Below the pieces are notes generated by a model. That model did not search any database and was not told where the DNA came from. It saw only the letters and a program-made list of their open reading frames with translations. The translations under genes and the position numbers were made by a program. A stretch of DNA of 64,000 nucleotides from a virus, in IMG/VR virus record IMGVR_UViG_3300021959_006010, positions 186,001 through 250,000 of that record; one strand, 5' to 3'. Of this stretch, positions 207 through 59,438 are shown piece by piece. How positions within the stretch are numbered: position 1 is the stretch's first letter; every line of letters begins with the position of its first letter.

Positions 207-1945
207 TAGTGTATACTTGGCAATTTATTATAGTCTACTTGATAGTAGCCTGACTCGTGTATACTCACTGCGTCAGCGTACTCAGTGTCTAATAGCTCTT
301 GTGCCATTACACCCGTATGCTGCTCGTTGCTCCATACATAATTGTATGTGTAAGTGTTAAGTCCTGCAACTACACCTGCAAACTCTACATTCTCTTTTAG
401 ACGCACATCTGAAAACCATTTCTTAGGATTGCTAATGGTTTTCCAGGCTTTGTTAGCCGCGTCTTCAATTGCCTTTTCAGCACTGTTGATTGCATTGTTG
501 CATTGATTAATTGCTGAGTTACAAGCATTGATAGTTGAATTAGCTGCGTTCATCATATTTTGTGCAGACAATGCTTGTTTTGTCCAATTAGCAGCTTCAC
601 TGCCCCAATGTGCTACTGAGTTAGCTGCATTGGTTACTGCGCTAGTTGCATCGTTTACTGCTTTCTCTGTCGCATTTACTGCACTGTTAGCACCTGCTAG
701 TGCTTTTTGTGCGCCTACTTGTGCTTCTTGTGCAACGCCTAGGCTGTAGTTTGCAACTTTAACTGCTTCGTCTTGTGCTGCATCAAGTTGATCAGTCATA
801 TACTTCTGTGCTTTGTCAACTGTGCCGCCTGCATCTAGGATTGCTTGTGCGCCGTCAATGATAGGATTCATATCAATGTCTAGATCAAAGTCTGCGTCTA
901 GTCCAATTAGACAAGCAACCTTACCGTCTACACCAATTGATAGTTTGTTGTCTTCGTATGTTGCGTGAGCACCACCACTTACACCAATTTGTGCACCAGC
1001 ACTTACACCTGCTGAACCACCTGCTTCTACATTACCTACGTGAGCTGAACCACTTGCATCTGCACTAACACTTGCGCCTGCAATGGCACCACCTTCAACA
1101 CTTGCACCGTGTTCGCCAACACTTGCACTTCCGCCTGCTTGTGCATATGCTTCTGCGTGTACACCTGCTTCGCCTTCTGCGCCTGCGTCAACGCTTACAT
1201 CACCAATAGGCGTATCTAGTCCAATGCTTGCATCTGCACTTCCACCTACTGTTGCATCAGCACTTGCACTTGCACCTACTTCTGCGGCTGCACTTGCATC
1301 ACTACCATCCCAGCCGCCACTTGCGTTTGCGTGGGCTTCTACTTCTGCACCTGCTTGAGCGTTTGCTTCTGCACTTGCATCTTCGTGTAGTGTACCAATG
1401 TTACCTAGGTCTTGTTGTGCGTGTGCTTCTGCGCCTGCTTCTGCATCAGCACTAACACCTGCGTGAGCTTCTGCACCTGCTGCAAACGAACTGTCTGTAG
1501 TTTCTACACCAGCACTTGCTCCCGCTTCTGCACTTGCGTGAGCACCTGCACTTGCACTTGCTCCAGCATTTTCGTTGCCTACACTTGTGCTTGTGTCAAC
1601 ACCTGCACTTGCATCTACAACTACTGCGTATTGCGGTTCGCTTACTTTGTCAACATTAGCTTGTGCATCTAGTACAGCAGCGTGAGCAGCATCATATTCT
1701 TCTTGTTTTTTCTTTTGATCTTCAACAGCCGCATCGTGATCTTTTTGCGCTTGATCCAACTGTGCCTGAGCATCTTTTTGTTGTTGCTCTGCTTTTGCTT
1801 TTTCTTGATCAGCGTGTGCTTTATTTGAATCAGCAGTGTTTTTTTGTTGTGTAGCACTGCTTAGTTGATTCTGTGCCTGAGATTTTTCTGCTTCTTTTTG
1901 GTTCTTTTCGTTCTGCGCATTGCGCTTGTCGTCTTCTGCACTCAT
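206..1945 (-). CDS. Ala/Ser/Gly-rich fibre-like protein with C-terminal S74 chaperone domain
   Basis: The 579-residue protein has three parts. Residues 1-100 are a Gln/Lys/Ala-rich coiled coil. Residues about 105-330 are a low-complexity silk-like tract built from Ala-Ser-Ala, Ala-Gly-Ala and Ala-His-Ala units. From about residue 510 there is an intramolecular chaperone motif (SDVRLKENVEF, then TGVMAQE), typical of peptidase S74 domains that trimerise tail fibres and then cleave themselves off. The stretch 370-500 is Ala/Asn-rich and probably helical. A tail-fibre or virion-surface role is inferred from the S74 end. The S74 segment is short, ending about 65 residues after SDVRLKEN. The DNA is correspondingly repetitive (TTGCACTTGC-like units), which creates long spurious frames on the other strand. 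Confidence 0.75.
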   Translation of the reverse strand: MSAEDDKRNAQNEKNQKEAEKSQAQNQLSSATQQKNTADSNKAHADQEKAKAEQQQKDAQAQLDQAQKDHDAAVEDQKKKQEEYDAAHAAVLDAQANVDKVSEPQYAVVVDASAGVDTSTSVGNENAGASASAGAHASAEAGASAGVETTDSSFAAGAEAHAGVSADAEAGAEAHAQQDLGNIGTLHEDASAEANAQAGAEVEAHANASGGWDGSDASAAAEVGASASADATVGGSADASIGLDTPIGDVSVDAGAEGEAGVHAEAYAQAGGSASVGEHGASVEGGAIAGASVSADASGSAHVGNVEAGGSAGVSAGAQIGVSGGAHATYEDNKLSIGVDGKVACLIGLDADFDLDIDMNPIIDGAQAILDAGGTVDKAQKYMTDQLDAAQDEAVKVANYSLGVAQEAQVGAQKALAGANSAVNATEKAVNDATSAVTNAANSVAHWGSEAANWTKQALSAQNMMNAANSTINACNSAINQCNNAINSAEKAIEDAANKAWKTISNPKKWFSDVRLKENVEFAGVVAGLNTYTYNYVWSNEQHTGVMAQELLDTEYADAVSIHESGYYQVDYNKLPSIH

Positions 1946-46245: not shown

Positions 46246-47658
46246 TTATTCTCCTAGGTTATTAAGAAATGCTTTGAGTTTTGAACTGTCTGTTTCAGCT
46301 CGTATCTTTCCTACACTTGCGCCTTCGCTTGGATCTTCCTGCGGCTGTGCTTGTGTGCGTTTGATGTTTGCTACAATTGAACTTGCAGTTGTGTTGCCTG
46401 TGCTGGTAGCAGCTTCGTCATCTTCTCCAATGTCAAATATGCGCAGTGTGTCTACATCAAAACCTAGATCTACTTTTTGTCCTACGCCCGAACTTGATCG
46501 TGTCTTCATCAGCTGTATTTGATAGCGTCCACGCTCACGCATTGCTCTACTAGTAAAGATACCAATTAGATTGTCTGCTGTGTTAATCTTTGAAATACCA
46601 CCCGAGATGTGGCTGTGATCAAACTCAATCTCTTCAACACTAGAACGATTCAACTGACTTGCTGTTACAAAGATACAGTTTAGTTCCATTGCCAAGTTGC
46701 GTAGTTCTTCTGACACATACTTGTCTTTAACAAACAAGTTCTCTGCTGAAATCTTTTGTCCAATTGGATGCATAAGATCTAGATAGTCTATGAGCAGTAC
46801 ATCCACTTTGCGTCCTGTCTTGATCTCATACTCCTTGAGGTACGCTCTAACATCGTTTGCGTTCTTGCCTGTGGGCATGTACTTGACTTGAAACGCACCA
46901 CTCTTCTTGCCAATCATCTTGACTTTCATTTCAACATCATCAAGACTCTTAAAGATATCACGACTTGGAATCTCTGAAGTCATAGCATCAAGACGCATGC
47001 TCACTAGATTCTCTGAAAGCTCAAATGTCAAGTACATCACGTTCATGCCTGCAAGACACCAGTTAACACCTAGGTTAGCCATAAACAAACTCTTGCCCGA
47101 ACCCGAACCACCTGCAAAGATGTTAAGCTCGCCTCTGTTGAATCCGCCAAACAGTTTCTTGTCTAGTGCGGGCCAGCCTGTGCTTACTTGTCCGTTCTTG
47201 TCTTTGATTGCTTCTAGTCGACTGCGCGGATCAGCAAAGTAGTCTGTGCCTAGATCCTTTTGCAGTCCAATCTGTACTGCTCGCTTAACCAAATCCTCAA
47301 CCGGGCCGTACTCGCCTTTCTCAAGCAAGTCTGCTGAGTCAAGTATTGCTTTCTCAAGTGCCTTGTGTCTACTGAACGTTTCGAACTCCTGTAGCAGCCA
47401 GTCATAGTGATTCTCCTGTAGGTCACCTGGATCTTTTAGTTGTGCGTCTGTAGCTGCATTGATCATATCAAATGTAGGCAATGCATTATGTTCTTCTACA
47501 TAGTCCTTTAAAAACTTTGCTGGTTCTACCAAACGTCTGTCAAATGTCTTTGGATCAAACACACCCTGACAGCGTACAAAGCTCTCAGCGTCTGTCATAA
47601 ACATTTCTAAATATACTTTTTGGATATCATATCCATAGTCGGTGTTTTGTCTTGTCAT
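46246..47658 (-). CDS. 41: Replicative DNA helicase (T4 gp41-like)
   Basis: 470 residues. N-terminal helical half, then Walker A FAGGSGSGKSLFMANL, LTFELSENLVSMRLDAM, Walker B VLLIDYLDLMHP, VTASQLNRSS and an arginine finger region RGRYQIQLMKTRSSSG. It is the DnaB-type hexameric helicase that works with primase gp61. Acidic C-terminal tail. Its own promoter lies upstream. Confidence 0.95.
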   Translation of the reverse strand: MTRQNTDYGYDIQKVYLEMFMTDAESFVRCQGVFDPKTFDRRLVEPAKFLKDYVEEHNALPTFDMINAATDAQLKDPGDLQENHYDWLLQEFETFSRHKALEKAILDSADLLEKGEYGPVEDLVKRAVQIGLQKDLGTDYFADPRSRLEAIKDKNGQVSTGWPALDKKLFGGFNRGELNIFAGGSGSGKSLFMANLGVNWCLAGMNVMYLTFELSENLVSMRLDAMTSEIPSRDIFKSLDDVEMKVKMIGKKSGAFQVKYMPTGKNANDVRAYLKEYEIKTGRKVDVLLIDYLDLMHPIGQKISAENLFVKDKYVSEELRNLAMELNCIFVTASQLNRSSVEEIEFDHSHISGGISKINTADNLIGIFTSRAMRERGRYQIQLMKTRSSSGVGQKVDLGFDVDTLRIFDIGEDDEAATSTGNTTASSIVANIKRTQAQPQEDPSEGASVGKIRAETDSSKLKAFLNNLGE

Positions 47659-47776: not shown

Positions 47777-49246
47777 CTACTTGTTTGCAGCAGCCGTCCA
47801 AACCTTAACTCCATATTGTTTTTCAAATGCTTGTGCATCTTCTACAGTGTTAACAATGGGTTTACCCTTGATGTTAAGTGAGGTATTTAGTAGCACAGGA
47901 CAGCCTGTAGCTTCGTACCAACGTTCTAGCAGTTTTCTAAAGCCCACGCTTTGCGTTGAAGAAACTGTCTGTACCCGAGAGGTGCCGTCCCTGTGCGTGA
48001 TTGCAGGTAGTCCAGGATCCTTGCAAGTTGCAGTGTATTGCATGTAGGGGTTTGCATATCCGTCGAAATAGGTAGACGCATGTTCCTCCAATACTGCTGG
48101 CGCAAAAGGTCTAAACTTCTGTCGTTGTTTGATTTCGTTAACTCTATCTTTAATGTCTGGCCTTCTGGGGTCTGCAAGGAGGGAGCGGTGTCCAAAAGCT
48201 CTGGGCCCGAACTCTGCCCTGCCGTTGGCCACGCCAACAATACCAGTAGTAAGCAACTCGTTAAGTACTTCTTCAACAGGATAATCTCCTTCTATGTTAT
48301 AACCTGTGTACACATGATCCATTTCCATGTGTTGTTTTTTATGGGCTAGTACACAACCTATTGCACTGCCTGCATCACCCGGGTTAGGCATGATCCATAC
48401 GTTATCGAAAAACTTGTATGCTAAATGGTTAGCACTGCAATTTAACGCACATCCTCCCATTAACACAAGGTTTTTGCTAGGCGCCATTATGCGGGCTACA
48501 TTCAAAATACCTTGAAAAATCTTTTCATACAGGTTCTGGGCTGCTGCCGCTATGTCAAAATAGTCTTGTTCAGTGGTCAAATCCTTGCGCCAGTCTAAGC
48601 ACCCTCTATGTAAATTGCGTTTAAAAGTAATAGGGTGTCCATAAGGGTCAACAAAATCTTCAACCATAGCTTGGTACAAACGATCTGGGTCACCGTATGC
48701 AGCCATACCCATAAGAATGTATTCGTCTTCTTGAGGTTTTAATCCAACCCTTTGCGTGATTGCCGAGTACCATAGTCCCACGGAATGTGGATATTTTTGG
48801 GAATAGACCTTTTTGAGTCTTCCTTCTTTACCATGCCAGATAGTAAGTGTATCAAACTCTCCAATGCTGTCGATACTAATAACGCAGGCTTCTGTAAAAG
48901 GACTAGTATAATAACCGGCAGCAGCATGGGAAAGATGATGATCAGTATACCTAATAGGAGCATGTATCCCATAAGATCCAAGATACTTACGAATATTGTT
49001 TTCACCCAACCGTATTCCTTGCCCTGCTCTAAATTGTCTAACAGTTTTGACAAGGGGTCTTTCATACCAAATAATTTCATCTGGTTCTCCCCATTTCCTT
49101 GCATATTCAATTAACTCGTTATTTAAGTCGGGGTCGTTTTTTATACCGCTAAAACGTTCGCTATGACTCGCAAACTCTAGTCCGTCTTCTGAAAAAACAG
49201 CTAGAGCAGCATCATGACTGTTAGCACTTATACCCCATGTAATCAT
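47777..49246 (-). CDS. Carbamoyltransferase (NodU/CmcH family)
   Basis: 489 residues. N-terminal actin-like part: WGISANSHDAALAVF, HHLSHAAAGYYTSPF and VISIDSIGEFDT. C-terminal YrdC-like part: VGVANGRAEFGPRAFGHRSLLADPR, VLLNTSLNIKGKPIVNT. These enzymes transfer carbamoyl groups from carbamoyl phosphate to hydroxyls of sugars or antibiotics. In phages, DNA base or glycan modification is the common suggestion. About 80 residues shorter than NodU. Confidence 0.9.
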   Translation of the reverse strand: MITWGISANSHDAALAVFSEDGLEFASHSERFSGIKNDPDLNNELIEYARKWGEPDEIIWYERPLVKTVRQFRAGQGIRLGENNIRKYLGSYGIHAPIRYTDHHLSHAAAGYYTSPFTEACVISIDSIGEFDTLTIWHGKEGRLKKVYSQKYPHSVGLWYSAITQRVGLKPQEDEYILMGMAAYGDPDRLYQAMVEDFVDPYGHPITFKRNLHRGCLDWRKDLTTEQDYFDIAAAAQNLYEKIFQGILNVARIMAPSKNLVLMGGCALNCSANHLAYKFFDNVWIMPNPGDAGSAIGCVLAHKKQHMEMDHVYTGYNIEGDYPVEEVLNELLTTGIVGVANGRAEFGPRAFGHRSLLADPRRPDIKDRVNEIKQRQKFRPFAPAVLEEHASTYFDGYANPYMQYTATCKDPGLPAITHRDGTSRVQTVSSTQSVGFRKLLERWYEATGCPVLLNTSLNIKGKPIVNTVEDAQAFEKQYGVKVWTAAANK

Positions 49247-49455: not shown

Positions 49456-49574
49456 TTGTAAATAAAAGGGTCCTTTTCTCTAAGTTCTTTTAATCGTTTC
49501 CTTATTTTAATTTCTTCTTTAATTTTATCATATGGCCAGCGTATCCAAGACCAAATCGTTTTTAACCAAACCAT
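49452..49574 (-). CDS. Conserved 40-aa protein after primase
   Basis: Starts MVWLKTIWSWIRWPYD, with an amphipathic Trp-rich helix, then KRLKELREKDPFIYK. The ending type (ELREKDPFIY) is known to me from marine T4-like phages. Overlaps primase by 13 bases and the next gene by four. Confidence 0.65.
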   Translation of the reverse strand: MVWLKTIWSWIRWPYDKIKEEIKIRKRLKELREKDPFIYK

Positions 49575-50545
49575 TTTTTTGCTCCTAGTCTAATTTTAAG
49601 AGGTGACTCTTCTGCACTTGTTGCAATACTATGCAATGTGTATAGTCTACCGTACTTATCTACTGCATCACCTATGTCATTAATGTCTTGTGTCCAGTTT
49701 GGCATACTAACGCTAAATCCTAGTTCAATTGCACGTTCAACAAGTTTGCTACCAGCCTTGTCTCTATCTGGTACAACAATAATCTGCTTCTGCAATCTAT
49801 TCAACAGCATTGCTTGTTGATCGCTTATTTCTGATCCGCCTAATGCACAACCTTCTACATGTATAGCATCAATCTGTCCTTCGCACACAATAGCAAATAC
49901 TTTGTTATAACCTTGTTCGTCTAATCCGTATACAAAGCCAGGCTGTACTTCTGTAAGGTATTTTGGCTTTTTATCTGGTACAACACTTCGAGCAGTCCAG
50001 CCTACGATGCGTCCTTCAAAGTAGAAGGGAATAATAAGACGATCACGATAACCTAAACTAGGTGACCAGTAGTAGTCTGTATCATCTACGTTTAGATTAC
50101 GTGACGCCATATATTCAAGTACAGACATACTAAACTTGTTAAAATCTGTAATGTCTGTAATTTTAACAGCATCATCTGGTAACGGAACAGTATTGAAGGT
50201 AGGCAACTCTGCTATGCGAGTTTTAGCCTCAACACCCTCGTTTTCTCTCATTACTTCTAGTGCTACCTTGTTGATTATATCGTCAGGTGCTCCTGTCCAC
50301 TGTAAGAGCTTACGCAGTTTATGAGAAAAGTTTCTGCCCGGTTGCCAGGATGCTTTGAAGCCGCAGTTAAAGCAATGATAACTTACGCCTCCATCGGGGT
50401 TGCTTATTAAGCCACCGCGTCCACGAGTGTCTGCCGTATGTCCATTATGATGGCAACACGGCGCATTAAAGGATAGCCAGCCACTAGGAGTTTGTTTCCT
50501 TTTAGCAGGCAAGTATGTCAGAACTGTATCGTTAACTACACTCAT
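49562..50545 (-). CDS. 61: DNA primase (T4 gp61-like)
   Basis: 327 residues. N-terminal zinc part: CCHHNGHT ... YHCFNCGFK. TOPRIM region: VCEGQIDAIHVEG and VVPDRDKAG. It lays RNA primers for lagging-strand synthesis with helicase gp41. A consensus promoter precedes it. Confidence 0.93.
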   Translation of the reverse strand: MSVVNDTVLTYLPAKRKQTPSGWLSFNAPCCHHNGHTADTRGRGGLISNPDGGVSYHCFNCGFKASWQPGRNFSHKLRKLLQWTGAPDDIINKVALEVMRENEGVEAKTRIAELPTFNTVPLPDDAVKITDITDFNKFSMSVLEYMASRNLNVDDTDYYWSPSLGYRDRLIIPFYFEGRIVGWTARSVVPDKKPKYLTEVQPGFVYGLDEQGYNKVFAIVCEGQIDAIHVEGCALGGSEISDQQAMLLNRLQKQIIVVPDRDKAGSKLVERAIELGFSVSMPNWTQDINDIGDAVDKYGRLYTLHSIATSAEESPLKIRLGAKKWFG

Positions 50546-51391: not shown

Positions 51392-51763
51392 ATGTTATTA
51401 AAAGATATACAAGAGAACTTTCCTTTTATTAGTGTTATAAGTTACGGCGGCGCAGAGTATGTCGGGATTATAATTAATCAAGACCAATGGGTAACTTCTA
51501 TGTACATCTATACAGATTTGAGATCCGAAATCGATAAGATCGAATTTTTAGAACTAGGAGATGTATGGTGGTGGGAGTCAAATAGGATGTTACCTATTAA
51601 TATTTTTCTTAAAGAAGAAATGGAAAAATTTGTTTATGCAATTACAACAATGAACTCAAAAAACGTAGTTGTAAAAGCAGGGCCGTGTGTTAATTTAAAC
51701 AATCTTAACATTAAGAGAGTTAAAAGAAAAAATGTACAACTTGTAAGAAAGCCTAAGGACTAA
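51392..51763 (+). CDS. Hypothetical protein, 123 aa, lone rightward gene
   Basis: MLLKDIQENFPFISVISYGGAEYVGIIINQDQWVTSMYIY, then a basic C-terminus. The only rightward gene in the right-hand block. It overlaps the following leftward gene end by 11 bases. Known to me as a marine T4-like phage type. Confidence 0.65.
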   Translation: MLLKDIQENFPFISVISYGGAEYVGIIINQDQWVTSMYIYTDLRSEIDKIEFLELGDVWWWESNRMLPINIFLKEEMEKFVYAITTMNSKNVVVKAGPCVNLNNLNIKRVKRKNVQLVRKPKD

Positions 51764-52313
51764 ACTGTTCGCATAGTAAGTTTATATGTACTACTACTGC
51801 GAAAGCATAACTCATAGCATGTGCTTTTTTAAAGTAGTACTCATCACCTTCGGGTTTTAACCAAACTTCTTTTTCTATCGTTTGCCAAGTTTCGTTGACA
51901 AGATGCCTCTTTGCAGGCCGTATTATCGCCAGTACTGCTGCTAACTGCTCCACTGACTTTGGCTGCAACTTCCGCAATATGTCTCCATGTCCGCTGACGT
52001 GGAATAGTAAGTTGCTGAAGTCTTCGTGCTCCAATAGTTCCCATTGTGGTTCCCTTTCCATTAGTTGTTGTAGGTGAGCTTCGTCTTTAACATCTTTATA
52101 GATACTTACATTAAGAAAATCTAATTTAAAATATCCTCTGTCTTCTGCTGTTTTGTGATCAATAGTAGATAGGTTATCTATTGGGTTATGAGGTATTTCA
52201 GTTGTGTAAACTCCAGTATTATGTTTTTTGCCCGTTTCGAGTTTAGCTACACGATGCCGTAACTTTGACAAAAGAATATCTCGATCTGCAAAATCTATAT
52301 CAATATCAGGCAT
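51753..52313 (-). CDS. Minimal C-family DNA polymerase (DnaE)-like palm protein
   Basis: 186 residues that read as a condensed DnaE palm and helical region. MPDIDIDF matches PDFDVDF (catalytic Asp pair, here Asp3 and Asp5). KHNTGVYTTEIPHNPIDNL matches the KHAGGVVI segment. YFKLDFLN matches VKFDFLG (third catalytic Asp, here Asp65). VEQLAAVLAIIRPAKRH matches the ALYRPGP motif, and YYFKKAHAMSYAFAVV matches FNKSHAAAYAL. DnaE is about 1,100 residues; exonuclease, fingers tip and beta-binding parts are absent. Whether it polymerises is open. Overlaps its neighbour by one base. Confidence 0.7.
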   Translation of the reverse strand: MPDIDIDFADRDILLSKLRHRVAKLETGKKHNTGVYTTEIPHNPIDNLSTIDHKTAEDRGYFKLDFLNVSIYKDVKDEAHLQQLMEREPQWELLEHEDFSNLLFHVSGHGDILRKLQPKSVEQLAAVLAIIRPAKRHLVNETWQTIEKEVWLKPEGDEYYFKKAHAMSYAFAVVVHINLLCEQFSP

Positions 52314-52711
52314 TACAGTTTACCTTCTTCTCTCATTTTTGCTCTAATCTTAGTTGCACTAATGTCGTGTACATCTTCGCCTAGGTCATGCTCAGTAAAA
52401 GTATACCCGACACCCCTACCATAACTAATGTCCACAATGTTAGGCACTTCCAAAATAATATATTTCTCGCCATATAAAAATCCCTCTCTAAACAGTGCTA
52501 CTCTAATATTCTTCTTTACTTCGTATACATCAAACGGATTATCATTATTGCCCATGCCTGCGTCAACACCCTGAACGTCACGTATCATTATACATACTTG
52601 TCCAGTTTCTGCAAGTGCCTTTTTAAATAATGCAGTGTGGCCATCATGCCACGGTTGCCACCGTCCTAGCATTTGTGCTGTAGGTTTTTTTGAATCAAAC
52701 TTTATTTCCAT
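52313..52711 (-). CDS. Nucleotidyltransferase (HIGH-type)
   Basis: 132 residues. GRWQPWHDGHTALFKKALAETG is the HxGH nucleotide-binding motif and ISATKIRAKMREEGKL the ISTTKIR-like motif of cytidylyl/adenylyltransferases. The size matches single-domain NMN or glycerol-3-phosphate type enzymes. It pairs with the next kinase gene. Substrate not known. Confidence 0.85.
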   Translation of the reverse strand: MEIKFDSKKPTAQMLGRWQPWHDGHTALFKKALAETGQVCIMIRDVQGVDAGMGNNDNPFDVYEVKKNIRVALFREGFLYGEKYIILEVPNIVDISYGRGVGYTFTEHDLGEDVHDISATKIRAKMREEGKL

Positions 52712-52968
52712 TATTCGAATCCTAATGATGATAAAAACAAAATAACTAATACTACTATTATTTTTGTTAATAACATTTTTCCTGCTTCTTTGCCAACTTC
52801 TTTAGGTGCAGGTTTCCAAGTTTCCCACTTACCTAGTTTGGCCCATTCTTCTTTACTTGTCCACAAACTGCCAACATGTTTTAACCATTCTTTAAAAGAT
52901 TTGTCACTATGACGTTTACGTTCTCTTCGCCATTCTGATAATATATCAAATATATCTTTAAACGTCAT
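52711..52968 (-). CDS. Small protein with C-terminal membrane anchor
   Basis: Starts MTFKDIFDILSEWRRERKRHSD. A charged Trp-rich N-terminal part precedes one membrane segment (LLTKIIVVLVILFLSSLG) at the end. ATG at 52968 was preferred because it overlaps the kinase end by 11 bases. Confidence 0.6.
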   Translation of the reverse strand: MTFKDIFDILSEWRRERKRHSDKSFKEWLKHVGSLWTSKEEWAKLGKWETWKPAPKEVGKEAGKMLLTKIIVVLVILFLSSLGFE

Positions 52969-53392
52969 CTTTAAATTCCATATAGCGTTGTACAACTTTA
53001 AACAATTGCTGGTGTGTATCATCAAACCACTGTGCTACATGATAATTAACATATGCCTTATAAGGACGTTCAAATATTTTATTTGTATCATCATACTCGC
53101 TTTTGTTAACAGTATCCATCCAGATAGCAAAATCAGCATCAAATACTTTGCGTATTTCGTCCGTTGGTGCTACAAAGTCTGCTATGGCAATTTTGCCTGC
53201 CATAGTAACACCGTCGGCTAAATGCCGCATTCGTTCTGCTTGACGCATTCGCCCGGACGGGCTAAAATCCCAATCGTTATATTGTTCTCTTATATTGTCA
53301 GCATTAAGATGCACTCCGCCAAGTAACTCTGCAAACGGTTTAGCAAGAGTTGTTTTTCCTGATCCTGGCAATCCAAAAATTAATATTCTCAT
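52958..53392 (-). CDS. P-loop kinase similar to APS kinase
   Basis: 144 residues. Walker A GLPGSGKTTLAKP at 7-19, NADNIREQYNDWDFS with the substrate Asp region, and ADGVTMAGKIAIADFVAPTDEIRK. The order matches CysC-type adenylylsulfate kinases, but the family also phosphorylates other small molecules. Next to a nucleotidyltransferase, a small sugar or polyol pathway is possible. Confidence 0.8.
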   Translation of the reverse strand: MRILIFGLPGSGKTTLAKPFAELLGGVHLNADNIREQYNDWDFSPSGRMRQAERMRHLADGVTMAGKIAIADFVAPTDEIRKVFDADFAIWMDTVNKSEYDDTNKIFERPYKAYVNYHVAQWFDDTHQQLFKVVQRYMEFKDDV

Positions 53393-54087
53393 AGTTTAGA
53401 TTCCTTTGCAACTTCTTTAACTAGTTGCACATCGCTCGTTTGTCTATTAAAACGCATTGCCCAGTGTTGAGGATTAATAACATGATACACCATACTCAAC
53501 TGCTCGTCGTTAAACTTGCCTAACATTTCTTTACCAGACTTACAATTAAGAATGAGCCAAGGACTAATCTTTCCATCTTTAATATCCCATACTGCTCGAT
53601 TAAGACTTACATAAAGAAAGTAATGATTCCACGGAGCACTTTTATCTTCTGCCCAACTAACCATATTATTAATACTACGTTCTAATGCTGTATGCACATC
53701 TTCTTTAAGAATTAATTCTAATGCATACTTTTCGTACAATTCTTCTTTGCACCAGTGGTCTAGTTTAACTCCGCTAGTAACTACATAGTCGATATATTTT
53801 TCTGGGTATAAAGGTTTAACATTGCTAAGAAAACTACCAAACTTTACAAAAGCATTATAATATTGACTGTTACAAAAATCTTCGTAGGTCTTTTCCTTTT
53901 TAGTGCCTGCACTTAATTTGTAAAATCTTTGGAATGCATAAAAGCCATGCCGTACACGTTTTTCGTCTTTTTGTAATGCTCTACGTTTTTTCTCACACAT
54001 ATGAGCAGCAAGAGTTTTTTCTCTTACATAACCACTACCACAGTATTCGCAAACATATGGTTTATTAGAGTTTGACGTCGACGCCAT
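53389..54087 (-). CDS. Zinc-finger protein near clamp loader
   Basis: About 232 residues from MASTSNSNKP. The CEYCGSGYVREKTLAAHMC segment is a CCHC zinc finger, followed by a basic stretch (EKKRRALQKDEKRVRHG) and a long helical domain. It overlaps gp62 by 23 bases. Conserved in marine T4-like phages as far as I know. A replication or transcription role is inferred from position. Confidence 0.6.
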   Translation of the reverse strand: MASTSNSNKPYVCEYCGSGYVREKTLAAHMCEKKRRALQKDEKRVRHGFYAFQRFYKLSAGTKKEKTYEDFCNSQYYNAFVKFGSFLSNVKPLYPEKYIDYVVTSGVKLDHWCKEELYEKYALELILKEDVHTALERSINNMVSWAEDKSAPWNHYFLYVSLNRAVWDIKDGKISPWLILNCKSGKEMLGKFNDEQLSMVYHVINPQHWAMRFNRQTSDVQLVKEVAKESKL

Positions 54088-54529
54088 GTTCTTCAGCCAA
54101 TTCTCTGAGTTCTTTTTTTGTAGATAATCTAGCAAGTAACTCTACCTCGTCTTGTTTCATATTCGGATAAACTTCTTGTAAAAGCTTAATTGCTTTTGAA
54201 TTAGAATCACCTTTTTTCTTAAATCCTATATATGGGTGGAATTCTATTTTACCTGTATTACTACTCATACATAAAAGTTGCCACATCAGTTCTTGATGTC
54301 CGTTTTCTTTGCCGACACCAATAGTATTGAAATGTTTATTGTAATATTCGTTAGTTTTAAAAACAGCAAGTTCTTGTTTTTCTCTCGATCCTTGAACATT
54401 ACTAACATACCTATTTAGTAACCAAAAGCCGACTTGCTTTTTTTGGTCAGAACTAAGTTCTTTCCAAACACTCTTTGCTCCCATATCTACAGCAGCTAAT
54501 ATATCTTTAAGTGGAATTTTATCTGTCAT
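54065..54529 (-). CDS. 62: Clamp-loader small subunit (T4 gp62-like)
   Basis: 154 residues. IPLKDILAAVDMGAKSVWKELSSDQKKQVGFWLLNRYVSNVQGSREKQELAV and the later IEFHPYIGFKKKG match the short gp62 proteins of marine T4-like phages. With gp44 it loads the gp45 clamp; neither of those genes is in this window. It has its own promoter. Confidence 0.72.
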   Translation of the reverse strand: MTDKIPLKDILAAVDMGAKSVWKELSSDQKKQVGFWLLNRYVSNVQGSREKQELAVFKTNEYYNKHFNTIGVGKENGHQELMWQLLCMSSNTGKIEFHPYIGFKKKGDSNSKAIKLLQEVYPNMKQDEVELLARLSTKKELRELAEEHGVDVKL

Positions 54530-58654: not shown

Positions 58655-58683
58655 ATTATAACTTAAGATTAAGAAAAAGTCAA
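58655..58683 (-). promoter_or_regulatory. Sigma70-type promoter
   Basis: TTGACT (58678-58683) and TATAAT (58655-58660), 17-base spacer; drives the 424-residue gene and probably uvsW. Confidence 0.75.
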
Positions 58684-59438
58684 GATCTTTCTATATCTTC
58701 TTCAGTGCAGTCAGTACCATATTGAATTTCTACTAACTTTAAAGGTTCAGAAGATTCGTTAGCAAGCTGATGCCATGTGTTTGCAGGAATATGCAAATTT
58801 TGGTGCTTTGTGTAAACGCCGTAAAGTTCTACATCAGTTGCAGTATTTAAAGTATAAACTGTTGCAGTTCCTTGATCAACAAACCAGTGCTCGCTTCGTT
58901 TTTGATGGCGTTGCATTGATAGATGTTGTCCTGGTTCTACTGTTAATTCTTTCACTTTTACTTCCTTTCCTGATCTATGCAAGACTCGATAATATCCCCA
59001 CGGCCTTTCAGTCTTGTCAGTTTTCCAGTCTTCTAATAACCAACTGCTTGAATTCTTTTTATTTTCGCCGCCGACGCCAAACACAAACTCTACATCTGTA
59101 AATTTCATTTCCGGTATATTAGAGCGTGATCGATCACCGCCATTTGCGAATACAACTTTTGTCCGACTGCCCTTTGTAGATAGTACTTGAAATATTGCAT
59201 TATTAGCAGTATCATCTTCGTCTCGAAAACCAATAACTTCGTCTACACATGCAAGTTCTTTTATAATTGCACAACGTTCTTCAAAGGGCATAAAAGGCCT
59301 GCCTTTTTTACGAGCAAGCCATTCGTCTGAATTAACACCTACCACAAGATGATCGCCTAATTCTTTTGCTGATTTAAAATATTCTATATGTCCACTATGC
59401 AGTGGATCAAAACCACCAGTAACTAAAACTACCTTCAT
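58680..59438 (-). CDS. Cytidylyltransferase fused to cupin
   Basis: 252 residues. N-terminal half: VTGGFDPLHSGHIEYFKSAKELGDHLVVGVNSD (HxGH) and RPFMPFEERCAIIKEL, like RfaE/glycerol-phosphate cytidylyltransferases. C-terminal half: ERPWGYYRVLHRSGKEVKVKELTVEPGQHLSMQRHQKRSEHWFV, a cupin of the mannose-6-phosphate isomerase II type. Likely makes or processes nucleotide sugars for glycan or DNA modification. The same fusion is known in marine phages. Confidence 0.85.
   Translation of the reverse strand: MKVVLVTGGFDPLHSGHIEYFKSAKELGDHLVVGVNSDEWLARKKGRPFMPFEERCAIIKELACVDEVIGFRDEDDTANNAIFQVLSTKGSRTKVVFANGGDRSRSNIPEMKFTDVEFVFGVGGENKKNSSSWLLEDWKTDKTERPWGYYRVLHRSGKEVKVKELTVEPGQHLSMQRHQKRSEHWFVDQGTATVYTLNTATDVELYGVYTKHQNLHIPANTWHQLANESSEPLKLVEIQYGTDCTEEDIERS

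Follow-up and report, generated by a model that had tools for sequence, protein, structure and literature searches.

The stretch analysed here, called the window, is 64,000 nucleotides long and covers bases 186001-250000 of the 275,366-bp virus record IMGVR_UViG_3300021959_006010. An intact open reading frame (ORF) with an ATG start, at 51753..52313 of the window on the minus strand (237753-238313 of the 275366 bp of the record), encodes a protein of 186 aa. This gene very probably encodes the C-terminal half, on the side of the catalytic aspartates, of a minimal C-family DNA polymerase or nucleotidyltransferase that is made of two chains and exists beside a B-family enzyme. The N-terminal half was found in the same record but outside the window, as an ORF of 184 aa about 120 kb away (G000:C1:117381-117935, minus strand). 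The two proteins are referred to as the C-half and the N-half. Homology, predicted fold, tiling of the two halves, a nearly fixed break, co-occurrence, purifying selection, a separate B-family polymerase and the lack of a full DnaE were observed, and from these we infer that the halves physically associate and catalyse. The features of the C-half gene are as follows.

51753..52313, minus strand: predicted C-terminal half of a split minimal DNA polymerase III (Pol III) alpha, 186 aa (phrog_11778 and model alignment)
52293..52307, minus strand: DIDID, residues 3-7, with the first two catalytic Asp, D3 and D5 (invariance; T. aquaticus MPDIDTDF at 461)
52119..52121, minus strand: D65 of FKLDFLN, the third catalytic Asp (invariance; hhalign onto E. 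coli alpha D555)
51915..51920, minus strand: R132-P133 of the finger motif LAAVLAIIRP (invariance; opposite E. coli LFRPGP, whose last residue is 642)
51819..51827, minus strand: K163-A-H165, part of the finger motif KKAHAMSYAF (of 88 sequences, all keep H165 and at least 90% keep K163)

The C-half gene and its partner

The DnaE-like motifs quoted in the original prediction were all found, in the same order, in the 186-aa ORF: PDIDIDF (residues 2-8), KHNTGV (30-35), FKLDFLN (62-68), LAAVLAIIRP (124-133) and KKAHAMSYAF (162-171). The best PHROG family for the protein was phrog_11778, named 'DNA polymerase' (E 5.6e-61). Relatives were detected in 63 of 50,697 phage records and in at least 551 of the 600 IMG/VR stretches examined. 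The phages concerned include Sinorhizobium Phosso, the PA5oct-like Pseudomonas phages, Agrobacterium Atu_ph07, the RaK2/121Q/CBB/GAP32 group, Vibrio 2.275.O, Salicola SCTP-2, XacN1 and others. A chance match of motifs was ruled out by the PHROG E-value, the relatives, the invariant columns and the ratio of nonsynonymous to synonymous substitution (dN/dS).

The link from the C-half to cellular DnaE by sequence comparison was weak. The C-half matched phrog_405, a phage DNA polymerase family, at E 0.001, and the Pfam finger domain at E 0.022, which is under the family cut-off; among the 88 family members, 66 matched the finger model at E <= 1, the best at E 0.0011. The best NCBIfam DnaE model gave E 0.004, far under its cut-off, and the best Protein Data Bank chain gave E 0.11 with the sequence and E 0.001 with the family profile. 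Therefore, the argument for the C-half rests on its predicted fold and on its partner gene and context.

In the DnaE chains aligned, PDFDVDF is preceded by a GRGS motif, and this motif was not present in the 186-aa C-half sequence. Judged by its motifs, the C-half alone is thus not a complete C-family core. When the whole record was searched with PF07733, the Pfam Pol III alpha domain, the sole match at E <= 1 was the 184-aa N-half (E 4.4e-11). This protein passed the PF07733 cut-off (E 3.2e-10), belonged to phrog_11127, also named 'DNA polymerase' (E 4.4e-39), and supplied the GRGS motif. With hhalign, for which one E. coli sequence served as the template, the N-half family spanned residues 272-395 of E. 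coli DnaE (probability 89%, E 2e-6), and R153-G154-S155 was placed on R362-G363-S364. The N-half ended in VWGVGRGSSVASYVLYLIGVHRINSIKYSLDWREFLR followed by the stop codon, and the counterpart of this end in E. coli DnaE lies at 393-395. The original prediction had described the 186-aa protein as a miniature C-family palm. It is a real palm and finger homologue, but it is not self-sufficient, since GRGS is in the second gene; the partner had been missed because its gene lies outside the window.

The two halves are separate, distant genes in this record. Among 10 isolates, they were closest in RAS14, at about 14 kb, and farthest apart in Phosso, at about 224 kb; in coliphage 121Q the pair corresponds to genes 56 and 16.

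Predicted structures and their placement on DnaE

The AlphaFold2 model of the C-half, built from 88 sequences, had a predicted local distance difference test score (pLDDT) of 93.5 and a predicted template modelling score (pTM) of 0.83. The N-half was modelled from 86 sequences on the L085 copy, which is 91% identical to that of our record (pLDDT 90.5, pTM 0.70). The structures were aligned by VIA-align on Foldseek candidates. The C-half model could be superposed, from residue 1 to 186, on E. coli alpha 400-781 (181 residues, Z 9.0, root-mean-square deviation (rmsd) 4.0) and on T. aquaticus alpha 461-838 (184 residues, Z 9.8, rmsd 3.6). A fold unlike the DnaE palm had been named beforehand as the refutation of the original prediction, which withstood this check: the top 14 entries were all DNA polymerases, aligned over 178-185 of the 186 residues (Z 6.2-9.8, rmsd 3.2-4.3), and the next row was unrelated (Z 3.5). 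Eleven of these 14 entries are Pol III alpha, and 9qrn, 9qpc and 9qrl, titled simply 'DNA polymerase', look like PolC from their residue numbering.

For the N-half model, residues 74-184 matched E. coli alpha 278-393 over 107 residues, with a Z of 11.0 and an rmsd of 3.2. The top 13 entries for the N-half were the same kinds of polymerase (Z 8.3-13.4), and the next row had a Z of 2.6; N-half residues 1-68 lay outside those alignments. The matches of the two halves on E. coli alpha (278-393 and 400-781) were adjacent and did not overlap. In the models, the two halves are thus predicted to tile one palm and a shortened finger region. The three Asp lie on the first and the last of the five strands of the C-half model, and the N-half model is mostly helical and bears the GRGS loop.

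E. coli alpha D401, D403 and D555 are taken here to be its catalytic Asp, and GS-type motifs function in Pol-beta-like enzymes. On this basis, the C-half would contribute the palm end with the three Asp and a shortened finger region, and the N-half would contribute palm-region helices and the GRGS nucleotide-phosphate-binding loop. The chains would associate without being joined and rebuild one Pol-beta-type nucleotidyltransferase active site, the two together having about 370 aa. In this site, metal ions would be bound by the Asp of the C-half, and the triphosphate of an incoming nucleotide by the GRGS loop of the N-half. By itself, neither chain would have the full active site, and the pair would lack a PHP domain and the thumb-sized insert as well as the clamp, OB and tau parts of the C-terminus. 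The places of these residues come from the alignments, and their roles from general knowledge of C-family enzymes. Since the site would be split over two proteins, an activity test on a single protein could give a false negative.

Like bacterial Pol III alpha (DnaE; PF07733 and PF17657), the phage enzyme has the palm, a part of the finger fold and, in matching order, the GRGS, PDxDxDF, KxD and RP / KxH motifs. However, it consists of two chains of about 370 aa in total, whereas E. coli alpha has 1160, and nothing in the alignments corresponds to the PHP domain, to the thumb-sized insert or to the region past E. coli 781. The spacing between D5 and D65 is 60 residues compared to about 152 in E. 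coli, i.e. about 92 fewer, and the segment gone is presumably the place of the thumb. From R132 to the end of the C-half there are 54 residues compared to about 142, i.e. about 88 fewer.

These missing thumb-sized and finger-sized segments are what a nucleotidyltransferase that is not a processive polymerase might be expected to show, with a role such as template-independent end addition or short-patch end repair in recombination-dependent replication. The UvsW-type helicase in the neighbourhood of the C-half gene, and UvsX and UvsY nearby in the window, would also suit such a role. End-processing in recombination is the main rival to the primer-extending or gap-filling role weighed below. We consider it rather unlikely, because R132-P133, K135 and H165 are invariant, as if a templated incoming nucleotide were still bound.

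Conservation, break point and co-occurrence

Two sets of 80 loci were compared for each half: near IMG/VR loci, which are closer to the window phage, and far IMG/VR loci, which were fetched with alignments headed by 121Q (A1 and A2). The far N-half set still includes close relatives of the window phage, at least 2 of which fall in the near loci. The C-half alignment (A3, 88 sequences) comprised the window protein, 15/80 near and 72/80 far sequences, the others being dropped because the motif was absent, there was no stop, or they were short or duplicate. The N-half alignment (A4, 86 sequences) comprised 13/80 near and 73/80 far sequences. Invariant in the C-half were D3, D5, D7, H31, G34, P41, K63, D65, P89, W91, R132, P133, K135, W151, H165, Y169 and N178; the three catalytic Asp positions, which had been predicted to be kept, are among them. 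Invariant in the N-half were R115, E119, L132, W149, G150, G152, R153, G154, S155 and L162.

No alignment of either half extends past E. coli alpha 781, beyond which the clamp-binding and tau-binding parts presumably lie; the pair is thus no simple substitute for host Pol III. This would also suit an inactive pair that serves as a scaffold, or as a decoy binding the accessory proteins of host Pol III. We regard this as very unlikely, because the catalytic residues are invariant in 88 and 86 sequences, and because a decoy would be expected to retain binding domains and not an active site.

The dN/dS was computed by the Nei-Gojobori method on pairs with 0.05 < dS < 1. The median was 0.145 for the C-half (105 pairs, range 0.07-0.295) and 0.196 for the N-half (463 pairs, range 0.046-0.558). 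Both halves are under purifying selection.

The break between the halves was nearly fixed across members. In the near loci, ATG stood at the start of the C-half match in 80/80, and the N-halves ended in EFLR (74), EFLRD (4) or EFMR (2). In the far loci, 71/80 N-half ORFs stopped 1-6 aa past EF(L/F/M/I), the other 9 being outside the pattern used. Among the 78 far C-half ORFs with the motif, the start codon was 1-6 aa ahead of DIDID in 72 and 9-18 aa ahead in the other 6; in 121Q and RaK2 it was 15 aa ahead. No far frame was long enough to be a natural fusion of the halves, save a 310-aa N-half frame (L269) that resembles an upstream stop-to-stop extension; 3/80 far C-half frames were cut or misread and are uninformative on fusion. 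In the BFVD, the matches to the C-half fold were mostly larger proteins of the Pol III alpha type. One match there, A0A249Y020 (E 0.04, probability 0.99), is a viral protein of 374 aa, the size expected of fused halves, so that a fused form may occur elsewhere.

Split inteins are well known in cyanobacterial DnaE, which like the phage pair is encoded by two distant genes. The phage halves might likewise be ligated in trans into one chain, by a split intein or by RNA trans-splicing, and in a related phage, MIJ3, the B-family polymerase has been reported to contain a split intein (PMC6892783). Nevertheless, most N-halves stop 1-6 aa past DnaE-like residues and most C-halves start 1-6 aa ahead of DIDID, which makes ligation highly improbable. 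A split intein was rejected, since no extra residues occur at the break in our pair and in most members. Unlike the cyanobacterial protein, the phage pair has no space for intein halves, because the break is nearly fixed, and it is not a full-length DnaE.

Decay of a once full-length dnaE into remnants would explain the small size and the missing domains, and the authors of the CBB paper wrote of a 172-aa alpha, which corresponds to the N-half, that it 'appears to be truncated' (PMC5259590). Decay is hardly credible here, being contradicted by the purifying selection, the intact frames in distant phages, the fixed break and the retention of both halves together.

Co-occurrence was counted on the records listed, i.e. 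60 of the 63 with a C-half and 60 of the 425 with an N-half, and 59/60 of these C-half records were also in the N-half list. Whole records were then considered, namely 10 isolates and 17 large IMG/VR records picked for holding one half. The N-half was found in 24 of these 27 records, the C-half in 25 and both in 22, including 10/10 isolates. A B-family polymerase was found in 25/27. The original prediction had pointed to the B-family polymerase of T4-like phages, and our own record has an 890-aa B-family polymerase frame with PF00136.

A set of 23 records, consisting of our own and those with both halves, so that records without one half were omitted, was used for the search for other polymerase genes. 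A full DnaE over the TIGR00594 cut-off (434 bits) was found in 0/23, the best score being 42.2 bits. The single TIGR00594 match in each of the 23 records was the N-half, ending at model position 385-395. In our own record there was no full DnaE and one PF07733 match; PHP, OB and other domains were not sought individually. A DnaQ-type exonuclease was rejected as a constant partner, being present in 12/23 records and absent from our own.

Gene neighbourhoods, earlier reports and the possible role of the pair

The gene order at the C-half is UvsW-type helicase, phrog_11058, C-half, convergent phrog_11637, a structural protein, primase and gp41-type helicase. The neighbours followed across loci are the following.

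51392..51763, plus strand: 123-aa phrog_11637 gene, convergent with the C-half gene and overlapping its 3' end by 11 bp
53389..54135, minus strand: 248-aa phrog_11058 gene, constant neighbour of the C-half
49562..50545, minus strand: DNA primase, phrog_47 (E 1.5e-42)
46246..47658, minus strand: DnaB/gp41-like replicative helicase, phrog_19 (E 3.1e-70)

The flank lengths differ between loci, so that low counts for farther genes do not mean absence. A phrog_11637 homologue was found at 77/80 near, 78/80 far and 8/10 isolate C-half loci, convergent in all, and it overlapped the C-half in 46/77 near, 59/76 far and 7/8 isolate loci measured; this linkage suggests a common function or regulation with the C-half. 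The phrog_11058 homologue was found at 80/80 near, 75/80 far and 8/10 isolate loci. Its protein has a zinc-finger-like Cys/His cluster near the start, YVCEYCGSGYVREKTLAAHMCEKK, and no Pfam match at E 0.01. The primase homologue was found at 69/80 near, 55/80 far and 8/10 isolate loci, and the helicase homologue at 52/80 near, 14/80 far and 7/10 isolate loci, short flanks lowering the helicase counts.

Some other genes of the window were also observed. The family phrog_10255 (230 positions) was represented by two ORFs, 52313-52711 and 52958-53392 on the minus strand, matching positions 2-102 and 123-228 between them, and it appears to be another protein split or fused between phages. A Nol-like carbamoyltransferase of 489 aa (47777-49246, minus strand) lies between the helicase and the primase, and in the seven isolates with both of these visible, the helicase and the primase are direct neighbours. 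In one ORF at 58680-59438 (minus strand), a cytidylyltransferase-like domain is joined to a cupin of the mannose-6-phosphate isomerase type.

At the N-half locus of our record (L082), a GroES-type co-chaperonin (635-1045, minus strand) and an apparent MazG-type protein (263-625, minus strand; judged by eye from the Phosso arrangement) were observed. GroES homologues stood beside the N-half in 71/80 near, 73/80 far and 8/9 isolate loci. A clamp loader is annotated near the N-half in 121Q, RaK2, Atu_ph07, SCTP-2 and XacN1, and the gene there in MIJ3 is named dnaX.

Several points weigh against a two-chain polymerase and against the role proposed for it. With hhalign, the C-half family matched E. 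coli DnaE at E 0.0026 and a probability of only 11%, which is weak alone. The AlphaFold2 models are single chains, each half by itself. Foldseek alone was borderline (best E 1.7e-3 for the C-half and 5.7e-4 for the N-half). VIA-align cautions that a Z below 8, or below about 13 for helical proteins, can mean a common arrangement, and the fold scores are within this range (Z below 10 for the C-half, up to 13.4 for the helical N-half); the fold reading was relied on because of the gap to the unrelated rows and the agreement in position. The thumb and the clamp-binding parts are missing from the pair, so that the pair may not be processive and may not even bind DNA. As for co-occurrence, the one exception among the 60 listed C-half records is PP728206, a 109-kb record marked 'unverified', in which the N-half model matched nothing. 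Among the whole records, three with a B-family polymerase are incomplete: in G008 and G011 the C-half was found and no N-half detected, and in G012 (543 kb) the N-half was found and no C-half detected. G002 is without the N-half and G016 without the C-half; in neither was a B-family polymerase detected, and these two records may be fragments. In addition, phrog_11127 matched in 8/14 cellular control genomes and phrog_11778 in 0/14, and the N-half model is therefore not specific by itself. XacN1 and RAS14 have no detectable primase, phrog_11637 or phrog_11058 homologue near the C-half, and a role drawn from gene linkage is confounded by shared ancestry.

A split minimal Pol III alpha has already been described in the group 2.2 jumbo phages by Iyer et al. 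2021 (PMC7824862), who proposed association and catalysis of the two parts and suggested one-strand synthesis or repair. Atu_ph07, which is placed in group 2.2 there (PMC7824862), holds both halves in our profile search. Our pair is like that of group 2.2 in having two distant genes and a family B polymerase, and differs in that the window copy is metagenomic (IMG/VR). Added here to the known split enzyme are deeper alignments, models, the tiling on E. coli alpha, the break point and the selection and linkage tests. In the sections on alpha of the CBB paper (PMC5259590) and of the Atu_ph07 paper (PMC6102473), one piece is discussed, in the latter gp316. In a survey of marine jumbo phages, PF07733 is given for 51.9% of the cluster PGC_A (PMC9123017), and this is likely the N-half. 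Among titles and the starts of abstracts, which included few subscription journals or preprints, no published biochemical test of the split enzyme was found. The names of the C-half in the 60 records listed were 'hypothetical protein' in 31, 'putative membrane protein' in 7, none in 6 and a polymerase in 16. Most of the listed C-half records are thus without a polymerase name, which matters for annotation.

As to its role, the two-chain enzyme might extend RNA primers or fill gaps beside the B-family replicase. We put this forward tentatively, on the linkage to primase, helicase and UvsW, its sole support. In Bacillus subtilis, DnaE extends primers ahead of PolC in a like manner. It is conceivable, if doubtful, that the pair is an obligate heterodimer and an unusually small C-family polymerase, which takes over from the DnaG-type primase and precedes the B-family replicase in primer extension or gap filling.

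With the window gene, the kind of enzyme predicted in 2021 is extended to a phage known from a metagenome and is given evidence from structure and from populations, and an active site split over two genes is a clean, testable prediction. If the proposed role is true, there would be a division of labour between C-family and B-family polymerases inside one virus. If the pair is active, it would be a natural two-part polymerase, would mark the minimum needed for C-family catalysis, and would shed some light on why two unrelated DNA polymerases are kept in a large lineage of giant phages.
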